Below are positions 9,574 to 13,600 of a stretch of DNA of 64,000 nt, piece after piece. Where the stretch lies: positions 1 through 64,000 of the forward strand of contig JAOLBK010000009.1 in NCBI GenBank assembly GCA_028339155.1. The letters run 5' to 3'. Origin of the DNA: Litorivicinus sp. (GTDB lineage Bacteria; Pseudomonadota; Gammaproteobacteria; Pseudomonadales; Litorivicinaceae). A model generated the notes under the pieces. That model was not told where the DNA came from, ran no database searches, and saw nothing but the letters and a program-made list of their open reading frames with translations. Position 1 is the first letter of the stretch. Every line of letters begins with the position of its first letter. Position numbers and translations under genes: made by a program.

Positions 9574-10734
9574 ATGACAGCACCATCTGACATTGCGCCT
9601 TACTCGGATAATGATGTTCGTCGCGTTTTGGAACGCTTAACAGAAAATTTTGAGTTCATTGATGCTGTCGGTCAGTTTCGCCTCAAGTACTGGTATCGCC
9701 TATTCAAACCATTTCTCCGGGGGCGAATTCAAAATACTTTAAAGACCAAAATTAAAACGATTCACTCAATCAAAGACTTTCAGATTGCACTTGAACCTAC
9801 TATGACTAGGGTACTTCAAAAAACAACAGAAGCTTTTACAGTATCTGGGCTCGAAAACCTCAATCCCAACGAAGCCTACCTTTTTCTGAGCAATCATCGA
9901 GACATTGCCATGGATCCCGCCTTTGTAAACTGGGCGTTACACAACGGTGGTTTCGATACGGCTCGTATTGCAATCGGCGACAATCTAGTTCAAAAACCTT
10001 TTATTTCCGACCTGATGCGGCTAAATAAGAGCTTTATCGTTAAACGCAATGTATCTGGCCCGCGTGAATTCCTGAAAACCTACTCAGCTCTTTCTCACTA
10101 TATCCGCGATTCTATCCATCAAAATCATTCCGTATGGATTGCTCAACGAGAAGGCCGCGCCAAAGACGGTATCGACCGAACTGACCCGGCGATACTGAAA
10201 ATGCTAGCAATGGCGGGAAAGTCCAAAAAAGAAGGATTTCCACAAAGCATAAACACACTTTCAATTGTTCCAATATCCATCAGCTACGAATTTGACCCGT
10301 GCGCCCCGTTAAAAGCACGGGAGCTCTCGATAACCGAAACAACAGGCTCGTACACCAAGTGTGCTGACGAAGACGTAGAGTCAATTACGACTGGAATTAT
10401 GGGGTGGAAAGGTCGGGTACATGTGCATTTTGGGAGTGTCATTGTTGACGTTCCGGACATGGCTCTAAATCTCGCAGAATATATTGATCATAAAATCATT
10501 TTAGGCCAACGAATTTTTGATACAGGTCGACTAGCCGACACTATGCTCAGAAATGCTGAGATACCAGACGGTATGACCCCCGATGTCAGGTCTCGATTTA
10601 AGCGTTTAGTTCGGTCGACACCGAGTGAATATAGATCGAAGTTGCTGGAGATTTACGCAAACCCGCTCAGGCAATTTAATCTTCATCAAGAAAGCATTAA
10701 CAACTTGTCAGATAGCGGTTGCAGATCCGAATGA
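9574..10734 (+). CDS. Glycerolipid acyltransferase (PlsC/PlsB-like fold)
   Basis: This 386-residue protein has the acyltransferase HX4D motif as NHRDIAMDP (about residues 109-117) and a downstream block WIAQREGRAKDG that matches the substrate-phosphate-binding motif EGxRS/T in position. It therefore likely transfers an acyl chain to a glycerol-phosphate-type acceptor for membrane lipid synthesis. It is larger than ordinary PlsC (about 240 residues) and has extra N- and C-terminal helical regions with no obvious membrane segment. It appears monocistronic. The exact acceptor is not evident. Confidence 0.75.
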   Translation: MTAPSDIAPYSDNDVRRVLERLTENFEFIDAVGQFRLKYWYRLFKPFLRGRIQNTLKTKIKTIHSIKDFQIALEPTMTRVLQKTTEAFTVSGLENLNPNEAYLFLSNHRDIAMDPAFVNWALHNGGFDTARIAIGDNLVQKPFISDLMRLNKSFIVKRNVSGPREFLKTYSALSHYIRDSIHQNHSVWIAQREGRAKDGIDRTDPAILKMLAMAGKSKKEGFPQSINTLSIVPISISYEFDPCAPLKARELSITETTGSYTKCADEDVESITTGIMGWKGRVHVHFGSVIVDVPDMALNLAEYIDHKIILGQRIFDTGRLADTMLRNAEIPDGMTPDVRSRFKRLVRSTPSEYRSKLLEIYANPLRQFNLHQESINNLSDSGCRSE

Positions 10735-10872
10735 ACGCCTCTTGCTGATGGATTTAACCACTTAGTGCTCCGCTTAAAGTAACTCAACAAGAGCAAGGAC
10801 TGACTAATAAAATCTACCAACCCTGATCACTGCCAAGGCATTGATGCATCTGCATAATCAAACACTTCCTTA

Positions 10873-11070
10873 CTAGTCATCATCCCGATGAACATGAACA
10901 GCTAATGCTCCACTATGAGTGTCAACATGCAATCGAAAAAGAATTGGAGAGCAACAAACCTGACAGTCCTCCCAGTAATTTTGATCTCCTCCACTGCCAT
11001 CCAAATCGACTAACTGCAACTCCCCACAATAAGGACAGTGAATCTTTCTCATCTCAAACATAAATTTCAT
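10873..11070 (-). CDS. CPXCG-motif cysteine-rich small protein
   Basis: This 65-residue protein has CPYCGE near residues 12-17 and CQVCCSPI around 37-44, two cysteine knuckles likely to bind zinc. It matches the small bacterial CPXCG family of unknown function. The ATG at 11070 is preferred because AGGG lies about 7 bases upstream. A later ATG giving MRKIHCPYCG is possible. It has no operon partner and lies divergent from the next gene, separated by an A+T-rich spacer. Confidence 0.75.
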   Translation of the reverse strand: MKFMFEMRKIHCPYCGELQLVDLDGSGGDQNYWEDCQVCCSPILFRLHVDTHSGALAVHVHRDDD

Positions 11071-11277
11071 TTGTACCCTAGTCGCTTTGGTGACAATTCA
11101 AGCCATACTTTCGAACAAGTATTTCGCGGCCAAAACAATATCTTTAATCTTTACGTCAATTCTTATGCCTCACAATACCTAGAAACCAGAATAATCATCA
11201 AAAAAGTATTTAGGTTACGAATATTTTGCATTGAAAAATGTTAGATAACTTATTAAAAAATATTAATTTTTTAAGTA

Positions 11278-11305
11278 TTGCACAGTGAATAAAAGGTACT
11301 AGAAT
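11278..11305 (+). promoter_or_regulatory. Predicted sigma-70 promoter upstream of small membrane protein gene
   Basis: TTGCAC, 16 bp, then TAGAAT, followed by GCGCGCC. An A+T-rich inverted repeat (TTAAAAAA, 6-base loop, TTTTTTAA at 11253-11274) sits directly upstream, like an UP element. The same TTGCRC-16-TAGAAT-nCGCGC pattern precedes speD. Confidence 0.5.
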
Positions 11306-11341
11306 GCGCGCCGACCACAATAATTCTGGAGCACACAATCA

Positions 11342-11668
11342 ATGCTAGATCACCTGATGCTTGGACTCGGATTCGCCGGCGGATTGATCTATCTGACGGG
11401 TTATCTATGTCTTACACGTGGATGGATTTCAGGTGACAGTTATGTCTTTCATGGCATTTCAGTATTTAGTTGTAGTTTACTCGCTCTATCCAGTGGTTAC
11501 TCTCACGCTTGGGCTTCAGCAGTCATCAATACGGTCTTCGTTATTGTCGGATCGATATATATCAGCCGTAAAGCCCTCACCACAATATCCAATACCCCCG
11601 ACACAATCACCAATGTTGCCGATTTAAGTTTTAATGCACCGGATGAAACCCTTGAAATTGCAGTCTGA
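11342..11668 (+). CDS. Small membrane protein, CBU_0592-like
   Basis: This 108-residue protein is largely hydrophobic, with three or so predicted membrane segments (about 7-27, 35-53 and 57-75) and a polar, Thr/Asp-rich C-terminal tail of about 30 residues. The pattern resembles the small CBU_0592-type membrane family, whose function is unknown. GGAG lies about 10 bases before the ATG, and a good promoter lies at 11278-11305. It appears to be a single-gene unit. Confidence 0.6.
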   Translation: MLDHLMLGLGFAGGLIYLTGYLCLTRGWISGDSYVFHGISVFSCSLLALSSGYSHAWASAVINTVFVIVGSIYISRKALTTISNTPDTITNVADLSFNAPDETLEIAV

Positions 11669-11939
11669 AATTAAAGGGCTTAGAAACAGGCTATGCTTAA
11701 TCATTCGAGATAGCTAAAAACAAGCAGGCGCACGAATTTGGATCTCAGTCTCGGTCCCTATATTCCCTGCACTTTCCAGCATCCTTGAATAAAATTGCAG
11801 ACTCGCTATTCGCAAAGTGATCCATGTGCAACACACGAATGCAGAATCACAGCCCCCGTAAAATTAGAGAAATAATCATTACAATTTACCAGATCTACAT
11901 CAGTCAAGCGCCTGCCGTTTGATTTCTATCGCTTTTTAC

Positions 11940-11967
11940 TTGCGCGCCACGAAAAAACCTCTAGAAT
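11940..11967 (+). promoter_or_regulatory. Predicted sigma-70 promoter of speD-speE
   Basis: TTGCGC, 16 bp, TAGAAT, then CCGCGC. Transcription starting shortly downstream would give a speD leader of roughly 110 nt. Confidence 0.5.
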
Positions 11968-11990
11968 CCGCGCTATCTGAGTTGGCAATT

Positions 11991-12088
11991 AGAGGATTTA
12001 TGCTTCTTCACTAGAGCGATACCCAGCACGAGAGCTGTGTATCGCACCCGTTACACAATCTCATTAGATCCAGGGGGTATCACCTGAA
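11991..12088 (+). promoter_or_regulatory. Structured speD leader, candidate translational switch
   Basis: Three pairings can be drawn. A is a hairpin at 12016-12045: GCGATAC with GTATCGC, plus inner CAGC with GCTG. B pairs TGTGTA (12036-12041) with TACACA (12052-12057). C pairs GATACCC (12018-12024) with GGGTATC (12075-12081), which covers the G-rich ribosome-binding site of speD. A excludes both B and C, whereas B nests inside C. The leader can therefore adopt an open state (A) or a site-blocking state (B+C). A short uORF ends just before hairpin A. Regulation by spermidine or S-adenosylmethionine is inference; no known riboswitch class was recognised. Confidence 0.4.
12000..12014 (+). CDS. 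Putative leader peptide (uORF) of speD, four residues
   Basis: ATG CTT CTT CAC TAG encodes Met-Leu-Leu-His. AGAGGA lies 3 bases upstream, a strong though tightly spaced ribosome-binding site. The stop codon is 1 base before the hairpin at 12016, so a ribosome pausing at the uORF end would cover the strand (12018-12024) that can block the speD start. Function is inferred from position only. Confidence 0.3.
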   Translation: MLLH

Positions 12089-12535
12089 TTGAGCACAATA
12101 TTAACTGCCGTCGCCACAACAAATTGGCCACAACACAACCAGGTTGAAGATCGCGATCAATCGCTGGATCACTTCGTTCATAGAGACGGCGAAATTTTTG
12201 CCGGCACTCACCTTATCATTGACCTTTGGGAAGCAAAAGATCTCGACTGTCTAGAACGGATGGAAACTGCACTCAGATCATGCGTGGAAGCATGTTCAGC
12301 AACTCTGTTACATATTCACCTACACCACTTCACACCAAATGGTGGAATTAGCGGTGTAGCCGTCCTCGCTGAATCTCATATCTCAGTGCATACCTGGCCT
12401 GAAAAAAATTATGCAGCTTTTGATGTCTTTATGTGTGGTGATTCAGTCCCACACAAAGCAATAGAAATTCTAAGCCTGTATTTTCGGCCAGAACGGCAAA
12501 AAATCTTGGAAGAACGTCGAGGCCGAATAACGTAA
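12089..12535 (+). CDS. speD: S-adenosylmethionine decarboxylase proenzyme
   Basis: This 148-residue enzyme makes decarboxylated S-adenosylmethionine, the aminopropyl donor for spermidine. The self-cleavage site Glu95-Ser96 is in AESHISVHTWPE, where Ser96 becomes the pyruvoyl group, and Cys116 in FMCGD is the expected catalytic cysteine. The TTG start at 12089 follows an AGGGGG site 11 bases upstream. About 38 residues precede the first core strand (GTHLIIDLWEA), an N-terminal extension compared with minimal prokaryotic SpeD. It overlaps speE by one base (TAATG). Confidence 0.93.
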   Translation: MSTILTAVATTNWPQHNQVEDRDQSLDHFVHRDGEIFAGTHLIIDLWEAKDLDCLERMETALRSCVEACSATLLHIHLHHFTPNGGISGVAVLAESHISVHTWPEKNYAAFDVFMCGDSVPHKAIEILSLYFRPERQKILEERRGRIT

Positions 12536-13374
12536 TGCGCTACCAAGAAACGCTCTACGCAGACTGGGGGCAAAATTTCGAACAGCACGAAGTACTGTTC
12601 GAAATGAATACGGATCACCAACACCTCATTATTTTTTCAAATAAACGCTTTGGTCGCGTGATGGCACTTGACGGGGTTATCCAAACTACTGAAGCCGATG
12701 AATTTATTTATCATGAAATGATGGTTCACGTTCCCATGCTCAGCCACCCTAATCCAGAGCATATTTTAATCATCGGTGGTGGTGATGGCGGAATCCTACG
12801 AGAGGTTCTCAAACATCCGTCAGCTAAGTCTGTAACGCAAGTCGAGATAGACCAAAGCGTTGTAGATATGTGCATAAAATATCTTCCTAATCACTCTAAA
12901 GGGGCATTCAACGACTCTCGTCTGAACTTAGTGATTGATGACGGAGCAAAATTTGTTCGTTCTAATAAATCTCAATTTGACGTGATCATCACCGATTCCA
13001 CTGATCCAATTGGGCCAGGCGAAACTTTATTCGAATCCCATTTTTATGCTGACTGTGCGAAAGTGATGGGGAAGAACGGTATCTTGGTTACTCAAAATGG
13101 TGTCCCTTATCTTCAAGGCGATGAGGTGACGGATACATACCGGCGCTGGAAACCGTTATTTCAAACAAGACGCTTTTACCTAACACCTGTTCCAACCTAC
13201 GCTGGCGGAGCAATGGCTATGGGTTTTGGAATAAAGCAGGCTATAAGTCATCCCTCCATAGAAATCCTTAAAGAACGAGTTCTATCCCTGAACGGTCTAA
13301 AATATTACACTCCAGAGATTCATTTAGGTGCATTTGGTTTGCCGAAATTTGTACTAAATTTGATGGTCGATTAA
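12535..13374 (+). CDS. speE: Spermidine synthase
   Basis: This 279-residue aminopropyltransferase converts putrescine and decarboxylated S-adenosylmethionine to spermidine. The nucleotide-binding motif IIGGGDGGILREVLKH (about residues 78-93) and the catalytic region DSTDPIGPGETLF with its conserved aspartates are intact. The N-terminal beta domain (MRYQETLYADWGQNFEQ) is typical. The start codon overlaps the speD stop, so the two are translated together, which suits a pathway where SpeD supplies the SpeE substrate. Confidence 0.96.
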   Translation: MRYQETLYADWGQNFEQHEVLFEMNTDHQHLIIFSNKRFGRVMALDGVIQTTEADEFIYHEMMVHVPMLSHPNPEHILIIGGGDGGILREVLKHPSAKSVTQVEIDQSVVDMCIKYLPNHSKGAFNDSRLNLVIDDGAKFVRSNKSQFDVIITDSTDPIGPGETLFESHFYADCAKVMGKNGILVTQNGVPYLQGDEVTDTYRRWKPLFQTRRFYLTPVPTYAGGAMAMGFGIKQAISHPSIEILKERVLSLNGLKYYTPEIHLGAFGLPKFVLNLMVD

Positions 13375-13432
13375 CCACGACAGACCAATTTTAATAGTGC
13401 TTTAACGATTATCAACCAGACGTAACTGATCG

Positions 13433-13474
13433 CCAAAATCCTTTTTTTCTAAGTGAACCTAATTAGGATTTTGG
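13433..13474. repeat. Inverted repeat between speE and TRAP permease gene
   Basis: CCAAAATCCT at 13433-13442 pairs with AGGATTTTGG at 13465-13474 around a 22-base loop. It lies between two convergent genes, so a transcription-terminating role is possible, but there is no T-run after the second arm on either strand. Confidence 0.4.
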
Positions 13475-13600
13475 GTGATTCAGCCACCAGTAAATTCAAA
13501 AAAGTGAAATGCAAGCAGTCAACAAACTACAAAGGGTAATAATAAAAATAAAGCGCACAAGCCACCTCCTCAATGAGCGATCATCAGTTTAACAGCTATT

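Follow-up and report, generated by a model that had tools for sequence, protein, structure and literature searches.

SpeD commits S-adenosylmethionine (SAM) to spermidine, and the locus studied here raises the question of whether translation of speD is controlled by a switch in its own leader. The window, meaning the whole 64,000 nucleotide stretch of DNA that was analysed (Litorivicinus sp., GenBank accession number JAOLBK010000009.1; coordinates 1 to 64000), comes from a genome of 1.88 Mb. When the speD leader in the window was compared with those of other Litoricola genomes and of further Gammaproteobacteria, it was found to look like an undescribed type of translation switch of these marine bacteria, present in similar form in several other gammaproteobacteria, with a very short upstream open reading frame (uORF) followed by a strand that can pair in two mutually exclusive ways.

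The speDE leader in the window

The features of the leader and of the two genes that follow it are listed below.

11940..11967, + strand: predicted promoter TTGCGC-16-TAGAAT, from cross-genus comparison at a fixed offset; predicted transcription start at ~11974
11991..11996, + strand: Shine-Dalgarno (SD) sequence of the uORF, AGAGGA; GAGG invariant in 15/15 Litoricola leaders
12000..12014, + strand: uORF ATG CTT CTT CAC TAG (M-L-L-H-stop), with a counterpart in 15/15 leaders
12001..12005, + strand: 5′ arm of helix E, within the uORF AUG-CUU, pairing with 12091-12095; 5/5 pairs in 15/15
12016..12024, + strand: strand 1 (dual pairing), forming the 5′ arm of hairpin A and the anti-RBS strand of helix C; from pair conservation and a cross-family partner-swap test
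12016..12045, + strand: hairpin A, GCGATAC (12016-12022) with GTATCGC (12039-12045), plus inner CAGC/GCTG
12036..12057, + strand: helix B, TGTGTA (12036-12041) with TACACA (12052-12057); arm-swap test
12018-12024 with 12075-12081, + strand: helix C, GATACCC with GGGTATC, the 3′ strand lying inside the speD ribosome-binding site (RBS)
12071..12086, + strand: hairpin D, CAGG-GGGUAUCA-CCUG (12071-12074 with 12083-12086), around the speD G-run; 4/4 pairs in 13/15
12072..12077, + strand: speD ribosome-binding G-run AGGGGG, 11 nt 5′ of the UUG at 12089; the block GATCYAGGGGGTATCACCTGAATTGAGCA is nearly invariant
12089..12535, + strand: speD, S-adenosylmethionine decarboxylase, UUG start; PF02675 (E=1e-32) and TIGR03330 (E=1.1e-36)
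12535..13374, + strand: speE, spermidine synthase; TIGR00417 (E=1.3e-96), its start overlapping the speD stop by one base

The coordinates given by the first-pass annotation for the SD sequence, the uORF, hairpin A and helices B and C were found to be exact base for base. Its four-residue uORF with AGAGGA, the stop separated from hairpin A by one base, can be read directly in the sequence, its view that A excludes both B and C agrees with the pairing coordinates, and its statement that C covers the speD RBS is borne out by the overlap of the 3′ strand of C (12075-12081) with the G-run at 12072-12077. It had missed helix E, which pairs the uORF start with the speD start, and the recurrence of the arrangement in other gammaproteobacterial families.

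Upstream of the UUG at 12089, no other in-frame start occurs before an in-frame stop is reached. The UUG start is kept in 15/15 Litoricola leaders, four of which (G010, G002, G007, G020) have an additional in-frame ATG 51 or 66 nt further upstream, and G017 has a TTG upstream of its speD UUG. The promoter pattern TTGnnn-16-TAnAnT is found 23-24 nt 5′ of the uORF SD (GAGG) in 15/15 leaders. A free search for it was ambiguous and it was recognised only by comparing leaders at a fixed offset; a generic promoter and terminator scan of the leader missed it (8 of 12 matches; threshold 9) and listed no intrinsic terminator at the speD leader. As the predicted transcription start (~11974) lies 5′ of all elements, the objection that transcription might begin downstream of 12045 fails at the level of this prediction.

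Folding of the window leader gave a z-score of -1.66 against dinucleotide shuffles, 10 of 200 of which folded at least as well. For one sequence considered by itself, this is within the range of chance.

Conservation within Litoricola

The genus sample comprised 22 genomes, 16 of which matched the leader model, 15 with a whole leader and one (G014) with a leader cut at a contig end. The six genomes with no leader match also had no speD match, and matches to the model within the genus were confined to speD. An order-wide search of 390 genomes with the Litoricola sequence model, using strict filters that lose weak matches, gave matches in 14, namely 13 of the genus and G064. The weak match in G064 was rejected, as the 457-codon open frame that contains it resembles, by eye, a pyruvate dehydrogenase E2 subunit. 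In L019 and L020, which are from the order but not from this family, no such leader was seen by eye. When a strict uORF pattern was run on 19 genomes, the speD leader was the sole match in nine, and in G012 one unrelated site was found and that genome's own leader (GAGGAATTATG) was missed.

All 15 whole leaders contain a uORF with an SD (GAGG); it reads ATG-CTY plus one or two codons more, and its stop is located 1-2 nt 5′ of GCG. The stop is codon 4 in 11 leaders and codon 5 in the other four (the window, G011, G007 and G020), and the predicted peptides are MLF (8 leaders), MLS (2), MLV, MLVI, MLVM, MLFY and MLLH. The distance from the uORF AUG to hairpin A is fixed while the codons vary. Loss of the uORF in close relatives had been named as a result that would speak against the switch, and no such loss was seen in these 15.

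The pairings were also retained. The lower stem of hairpin A keeps 7/7 pairs in 12 leaders and 6/7 in three, and helix C keeps 6/6 pairs in 14, the exception being G013 (5/6), where one change at column 35 breaks a pair in A and in C. Hairpin D has 3/4 pairs in the two leaders where it is incomplete, and helix E, formed by UGCUY of the uORF and GAGCA at the speD start, is complete in every leader. Changes in strand 1 at columns 34, 36 and 38 retain pairing through G-U, and the sequence block around the speD RBS is nearly invariant in the 15 leaders, with AAGAGG at the G-run of G017 as an exception. Judged by this conservation, with the uORF in 15/15 and the pairs of A, C and E kept, the leader is beyond chance.

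The arms of helix B vary in sequence, and the native combinations (-8.35 kcal/mol) were more stable than combinations swapped between species (-6.57 kcal/mol), with p=1e-4 for all 15 leaders and 3.5e-4 for 10 representatives. By this comparison the two arms are co-adapted; the helix is weakest in G009 (-1.7) and G021 (-5.9).

Covariation in A, B and C had been proposed as a test of the fold, and little of it was found inside the genus. Double changes were seen at two pairs of helix B and at three pairs of apical hairpin A, each of which is broken in some leaders, and no compensatory double change was present in the lower stem of A or in C, D or E of the 15 leaders. In C and the lower A stem, the only changes are G-U variants and a few broken pairs. 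Counts of paired cells, 90.0% for the OFF structure (E, C and B) and 97.9% for the ON structure (A, D and E), were equalled or exceeded in 50 of 500 and 500 of 500 shuffles, respectively. Classical covariation within Litoricola is thus weak on these alignments.

Ensembles forced to contain A or C differ by up to 8.7 kcal/mol in the 15 leaders. C is favoured by at least 4 kcal/mol in 10, A is favoured by 1.7-2.6 kcal/mol in three (the window, at 1.7, G005 and G016), and the two are balanced in G017 and G021; the states lie within 2.6 kcal/mol of each other in 5/15.

Tiny uORFs and dual-pairing strands in other families

Leaders beyond Litoricola were collected from 65 other speD genes and from matches in class and order samples. 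Part of these leaders carry an SD-led uORF in which an ATG and two to four codons more precede the stop, the ATG lying 75-120 nt before speD. Three types could be recognised. Type I has M-x-T or S-TAG followed by CCCARRCGTY and later GGCGYKYAAGCA (L097, L188, L209, L192, L114, L086), and type II has M-x-x-R-stop, mostly followed by GCG-rich sequence, which is missing from L210 and L211. Type III comprises the Litoricola leaders. Type II peptides are MLRR, MNIR, MFFR, MLVR, MFSR, MFIR, MLIR, MFHR, MFYR, MYSR, MVPR and MFQR, and the Arg is kept while its codon varies (CGC, CGT, CGG), with Gln in its place in L082. Carriers include Arenicella (L121), a Methylococcales assembly (L086) and Mangrovimicrobium sediminis (L078, with a weak SD), and Zooshikella (L090, L117) is less alike.

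A uORF rule, fixed after examples had been seen, called for an ATG at -130 to -70, 3-5 sense codons and an SD energy of -3.5 or lower. It was applied to the 17 strongest class-wide leaders (L180-L196), which were drawn from 369 genomes of which 37 matched, and to control genes from the window and 20 stretches of 20 kb. Nine of the 17 leaders passed, compared with 0.22 expected from dinucleotide shuffles and with 3/59 control genes (Fisher 2.7e-5). The eight that failed were L180, L183 and L186, all from one family, together with L194, L195, L196, L181 and L182, the last two of which do have a uORF (MFYQ in L181, MYT in L182) with a weak SD. In wider sets, 13/80 leaders passed the first uORF rule used, against 3.57 expected, and 19/77 non-redundant leaders passed a slightly different rule. 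The first control, which used intergenic leaders, gave the weak result of 10/40 speD leaders against 2/40 others (p=0.025).

From 96 collected leaders, 30 non-Litoricola uORF leaders were picked by eye, among them some with weak SDs (L078, L082, L086, L114, L121) and some that are least alike (L090, L117, L093, L107, L095). Unplaceable leaders (L197-L199, L212-L214, L224) were left out and the weaker matches L200-L208 and 47 viral loci stood outside the comparison. After six near-duplicates and 10 Litoricola rows had been dropped, n=29 leaders, 24 non-Litoricola plus Litoricola, entered a partner-swap test. This test computed how well strand 1, taken as the 18 nt that follow the uORF stop, pairs with the mid-leader strand and the RBS of its own leader and with those of the other leaders; the leaders had been chosen for their uORF and not for pairing.

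Strand 1 paired better with its own mid-leader strand (-13.8 vs -10.1 kcal/mol when swapped) and with its own RBS (-12.7 vs -10.3 kcal/mol), in each case with p=5e-5 and 0 of 20,000 permutations as low. The p values were 5e-5 (mid-leader) and 1.2e-3 (RBS) for the 24 non-Litoricola leaders, and 5e-5 and 9.5e-4 for a set of 15 with one leader per presumed family, which was the author's own choice. The native pairing beat the swapped mean in 24/29 leaders for the A-type and in 23/29 for the C-type pairing, and C is all but absent in the uORF leaders L190 (-3.0) and L113 (-2.0). A negative control in which the mid-leader strand was paired with the RBS gave p=0.63, which speaks against an effect of base composition. 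Apparently, the combination of a uORF and a dual-pairing strand is spread over several families of Gammaproteobacteria.

These pairings bear on constitutive translational coupling, in which ribosomes on the uORF would keep the leader open or load the weak UUG start and nothing would be sensed. The UUG start with its G-run 11 nt away, the invariant uORF SD and the joining of both starts by helix E are all consistent with coupling. However, a simple loading device needs no rival pairings, and two for strand 1 are kept across families; coupling is an improbable explanation.

Helix E gave no signal outside Litoricola (p=0.54 for the 24 non-Litoricola leaders, and 0.27 for all 29) and was rejected as a general feature. 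Its presence in 15/15 Litoricola leaders could also mean that the uORF is untranslated, with AUGCUC and GAGG conserved as RNA because E pairs AUGCUC with GAGCA. However, E explains neither the SD nor an in-frame stop at two positions in different lineages, the 24 tested non-Litoricola uORF leaders have no E signal, and in M-x-x-R-stop uORFs the amino acid is kept through changes of the Arg codon, L082 excepted. It is therefore very unlikely that the uORF serves as RNA only.

A candidate translational attenuator and its relation to other leaders

The uORF, both pairing options and the promoter are conserved in the sequences compared, and the uORF with its dual-pairing strand recurs in other families. 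As the same strand following the tiny uORF stop can close either a hairpin or the speD RBS, the leader has the anatomy of translational attenuation, and we consider it reasonably probable that the speDE leader is a translational attenuator gated by the uORF. The first-pass annotation had proposed a ribosome- or ligand-controlled switch; the part of this that stands, on pair conservation and the partner-swap tests, is a conserved uORF-associated two-state leader able to hide the speD RBS, and a response to a stalled ribosome or to a ligand is putative. We infer that the uORF is translated, that its occupancy turns speD on and that the sensed quantity is polyamine-linked.

In such an attenuator, strand 1, located right after the uORF stop, would have the mid-leader strand (A) and the speD RBS (C) as rival partners. 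Formation of hairpin A would leave the RBS free of C, and formation of helix C would turn speD off, with B tying up the strand freed from A. In Litoricola, helix E would in addition pair the uORF AUG with the speD UUG region. A ribosome starting on the strong uORF SD would open E and, when terminating, would cover strand 1 such that neither A nor C could form and speD could start, and RNA with no ribosome on the uORF would tend towards E, B and C together. SpeD output would then be set by the frequency or duration of uORF occupancy, and the sensed quantity would be linked to polyamines through negative feedback on uORF initiation or termination. A peptide of 3-5 residues would hardly be sensed in the exit tunnel, and with tunnel sensing set aside on account of its length, initiation, termination, drop-off or the RNA itself would have to carry the signal.

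A folding model was used in which a ribosome at the uORF end had an assumed footprint covering the first 9-10 nt of strand 1. Placing this ribosome on the stop codon of the uORF reduced the average RBS-opening cost in Litoricola from 12.65 to 7.38 kcal/mol; the cost was lower in 13/15 leaders and rose slightly in the window (7.4 to 8.9 kcal/mol) and in G016 (5.1 to 7.4 kcal/mol). The gain from masking peaked when the P site was placed 6-15 nt downstream of the A in the uORF AUG; the position of the uORF stop (6 or 9) falls within this range. The model thus favours occupancy as the ON signal in Litoricola as a group. In the 24 non-Litoricola leaders the mean opening cost was almost flat (11.29 to 11.15 kcal/mol), and the idea that ribosome masking opens the RBS in general is unsupported outside Litoricola.

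To our knowledge, few regulatory leader ORFs are as short as the 3-5 codons on which this recurrent switch would be built, and if it is real it poses the question of how a ribosome making two to four peptide bonds reports polyamine status. More speculatively, many gammaproteobacteria with a short (TIGR03330-type) SpeD may share an undescribed form of feedback: ribosomes starting or terminating on a uORF of 3-5 codons, whose nascent chain would be too short for tunnel sensing, would report polyamine status to speD via a strand toggling between hairpin and RBS. We put this generalisation forward as possible though doubtful. HIMB30 (L059) and LSUCC0096 (L052) are presumably cultured strains, and their records are not labelled as metagenome assemblies, which would make the switch experimentally testable.

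In erm attenuators, a ribosome on the uORF frees a base-paired downstream RBS. For toiL (topAI-toiL), excerpts of the source likewise describe a ribosome on the uORF freeing a downstream RBS held in base pairs (PMC12121999). The speD leader shares with this type a conserved, SD-led short upstream ORF (15/15 in Litoricola and 9/17 class-wide) and alternative pairings, one of which hides the RBS of the main gene (A and C kept, and the partner-swap tests), with weak covariation in the genus. It differs from erm and topAI-toiL, which have antibiotic inducers, in that the anti-RBS role falls to the very strand that follows the uORF stop.

The first-pass annotation knew of no counterpart in bacteria to the polyamine-sensing uORF of the mammalian enzyme, which is too narrow as E. 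coli mdtU and speFL precede it (PMC7815308, in the excerpted text). According to the same excerpts, spermidine induction of mdtJI, which encodes a spermidine exporter, requires the start of the mdtU uORF. The mdtU-mdtJI leader resembles the speD leader in having a uORF before a polyamine gene and a segment predicted to pair with the downstream RBS, and differs in its 34-codon uORF with a stop 106 nt before mdtJ, in Rho-dependent termination and in inducing an exporter (PMC7815308, excerpts). The Litoricola uORFs, unlike mdtU, have 3-4 codons and precede a biosynthetic gene, and the window uORF, with 4 sense codons before speD, falls outside the family of uORFs of ~34 codons before mdtJI. The speFL-speF leader (ornithine decarboxylase) of E. 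coli and Salmonella likewise combines a uORF before a polyamine biosynthesis gene with effects on mRNA structure, and ornithine arrests the ribosome on speFL immediately ahead of the stop codon (PMC7815308, excerpts). However, the 3-4 residue Litoricola peptide would hardly enter the exit tunnel, and with speD as the gene and a peptide of this length the leader is not an ornithine-sensing attenuator of the speFL type.

A variant of the SAM-I riboswitch that senses spermidine is associated with spe genes including speD, and in the excerpted description it consists of a SAM-I aptamer acting through transcription termination (PMC10853860). The speD leader differs in having neither an Rfam match nor a listed intrinsic terminator: within 10500-13500 of the window no Rfam covariance model matched with an E value of 1 or below, and at gathering thresholds the models gave one tRNA only in 20 related loci. 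That spermidine riboswitches exist (PMC10853860, excerpts), together with the nearly invariant block around the RBS and the two exclusive folds, would fit a metabolite riboswitch in which spermidine, putrescine, SAM or MTA binds the folded leader and the uORF is incidental or part of the fold. However, the invariant block coincides with the RBS, its pairing partners and the start, a riboswitch does not need a conserved ORF, and what recurs across families is the uORF and dual-pairing strand, with no further shared fold noticed. Given also the missing Rfam match, a riboswitch is an unlikely reading, and the uORF-gated attenuator remains the one preferred here.

The uORF of eukaryotic AdoMetDC encodes the peptide MAGDIS. 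Short uORFs tune polyamine genes in eukaryotic AdoMetDC, AZIN1 and yeast HOL1, and in HOL1 polyamines impair peptide release at a PS-stop motif, as far as the excerpts describe (PMC11550727). The likeness ends there, as the eukaryotic uORFs involve scanning ribosomes and repression at high polyamines, no homology is claimed, and polyamine-blocked release at HOL1 is only a parallel to what might occur on the speD uORF. A spermidine-dependent effect of a 5′ region is also described for Borrelia potB (PMC10319736, excerpts). By anatomy, none of mdtU, speFL, toiL, the spermidine-sensing SAM-I variant and potB is the speD leader element, and the open-licence papers searched yielded no description of a uORF or a leader switch for a bacterial or gammaproteobacterial speD.

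Several other speD leaders have features of their own. Eight speD genes, most of them labelled alphaproteobacterial (L087, L099, L101, L112, L122, L123, L124, L129), have TCATCTRCTGG right before the RBS, 23-27 nt upstream, and five of these also have CAATTGGGGATSGACTTGGA near the gene start. They represent another conserved type of speD leader, distinct from the one in Litoricola, with no Rfam match in L101 or L129. Thiomicrorhabdus/Hydrogenovibrio-type leaders have TTAATCATTCATCC in common at 13 loci (L070, L071, L073, L079, L080, L088, L089, L091, L094, L096, L102, L111, L180), 54-69 nt upstream of speD, with no tiny-uORF match in any of the 13. The Pseudohongiella-type leaders L104, L110, L118 and L120 carry GGAGGCTWATAG 88-89 nt upstream of speD, at about the uORF distance, with no ATG there. 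L017 and L018 belong to two further families of this order. Their predicted speD ATG is preceded by GGAGGATTTATGCTAA and GGGGGATTTATGTTAA, respectively, and a uORF-like SD-ATG is located 7 nt before the speD start, out of frame. Long T-runs were seen by eye shortly before the speD start in L065-L067, L077, L081, L083, L085 and L109.
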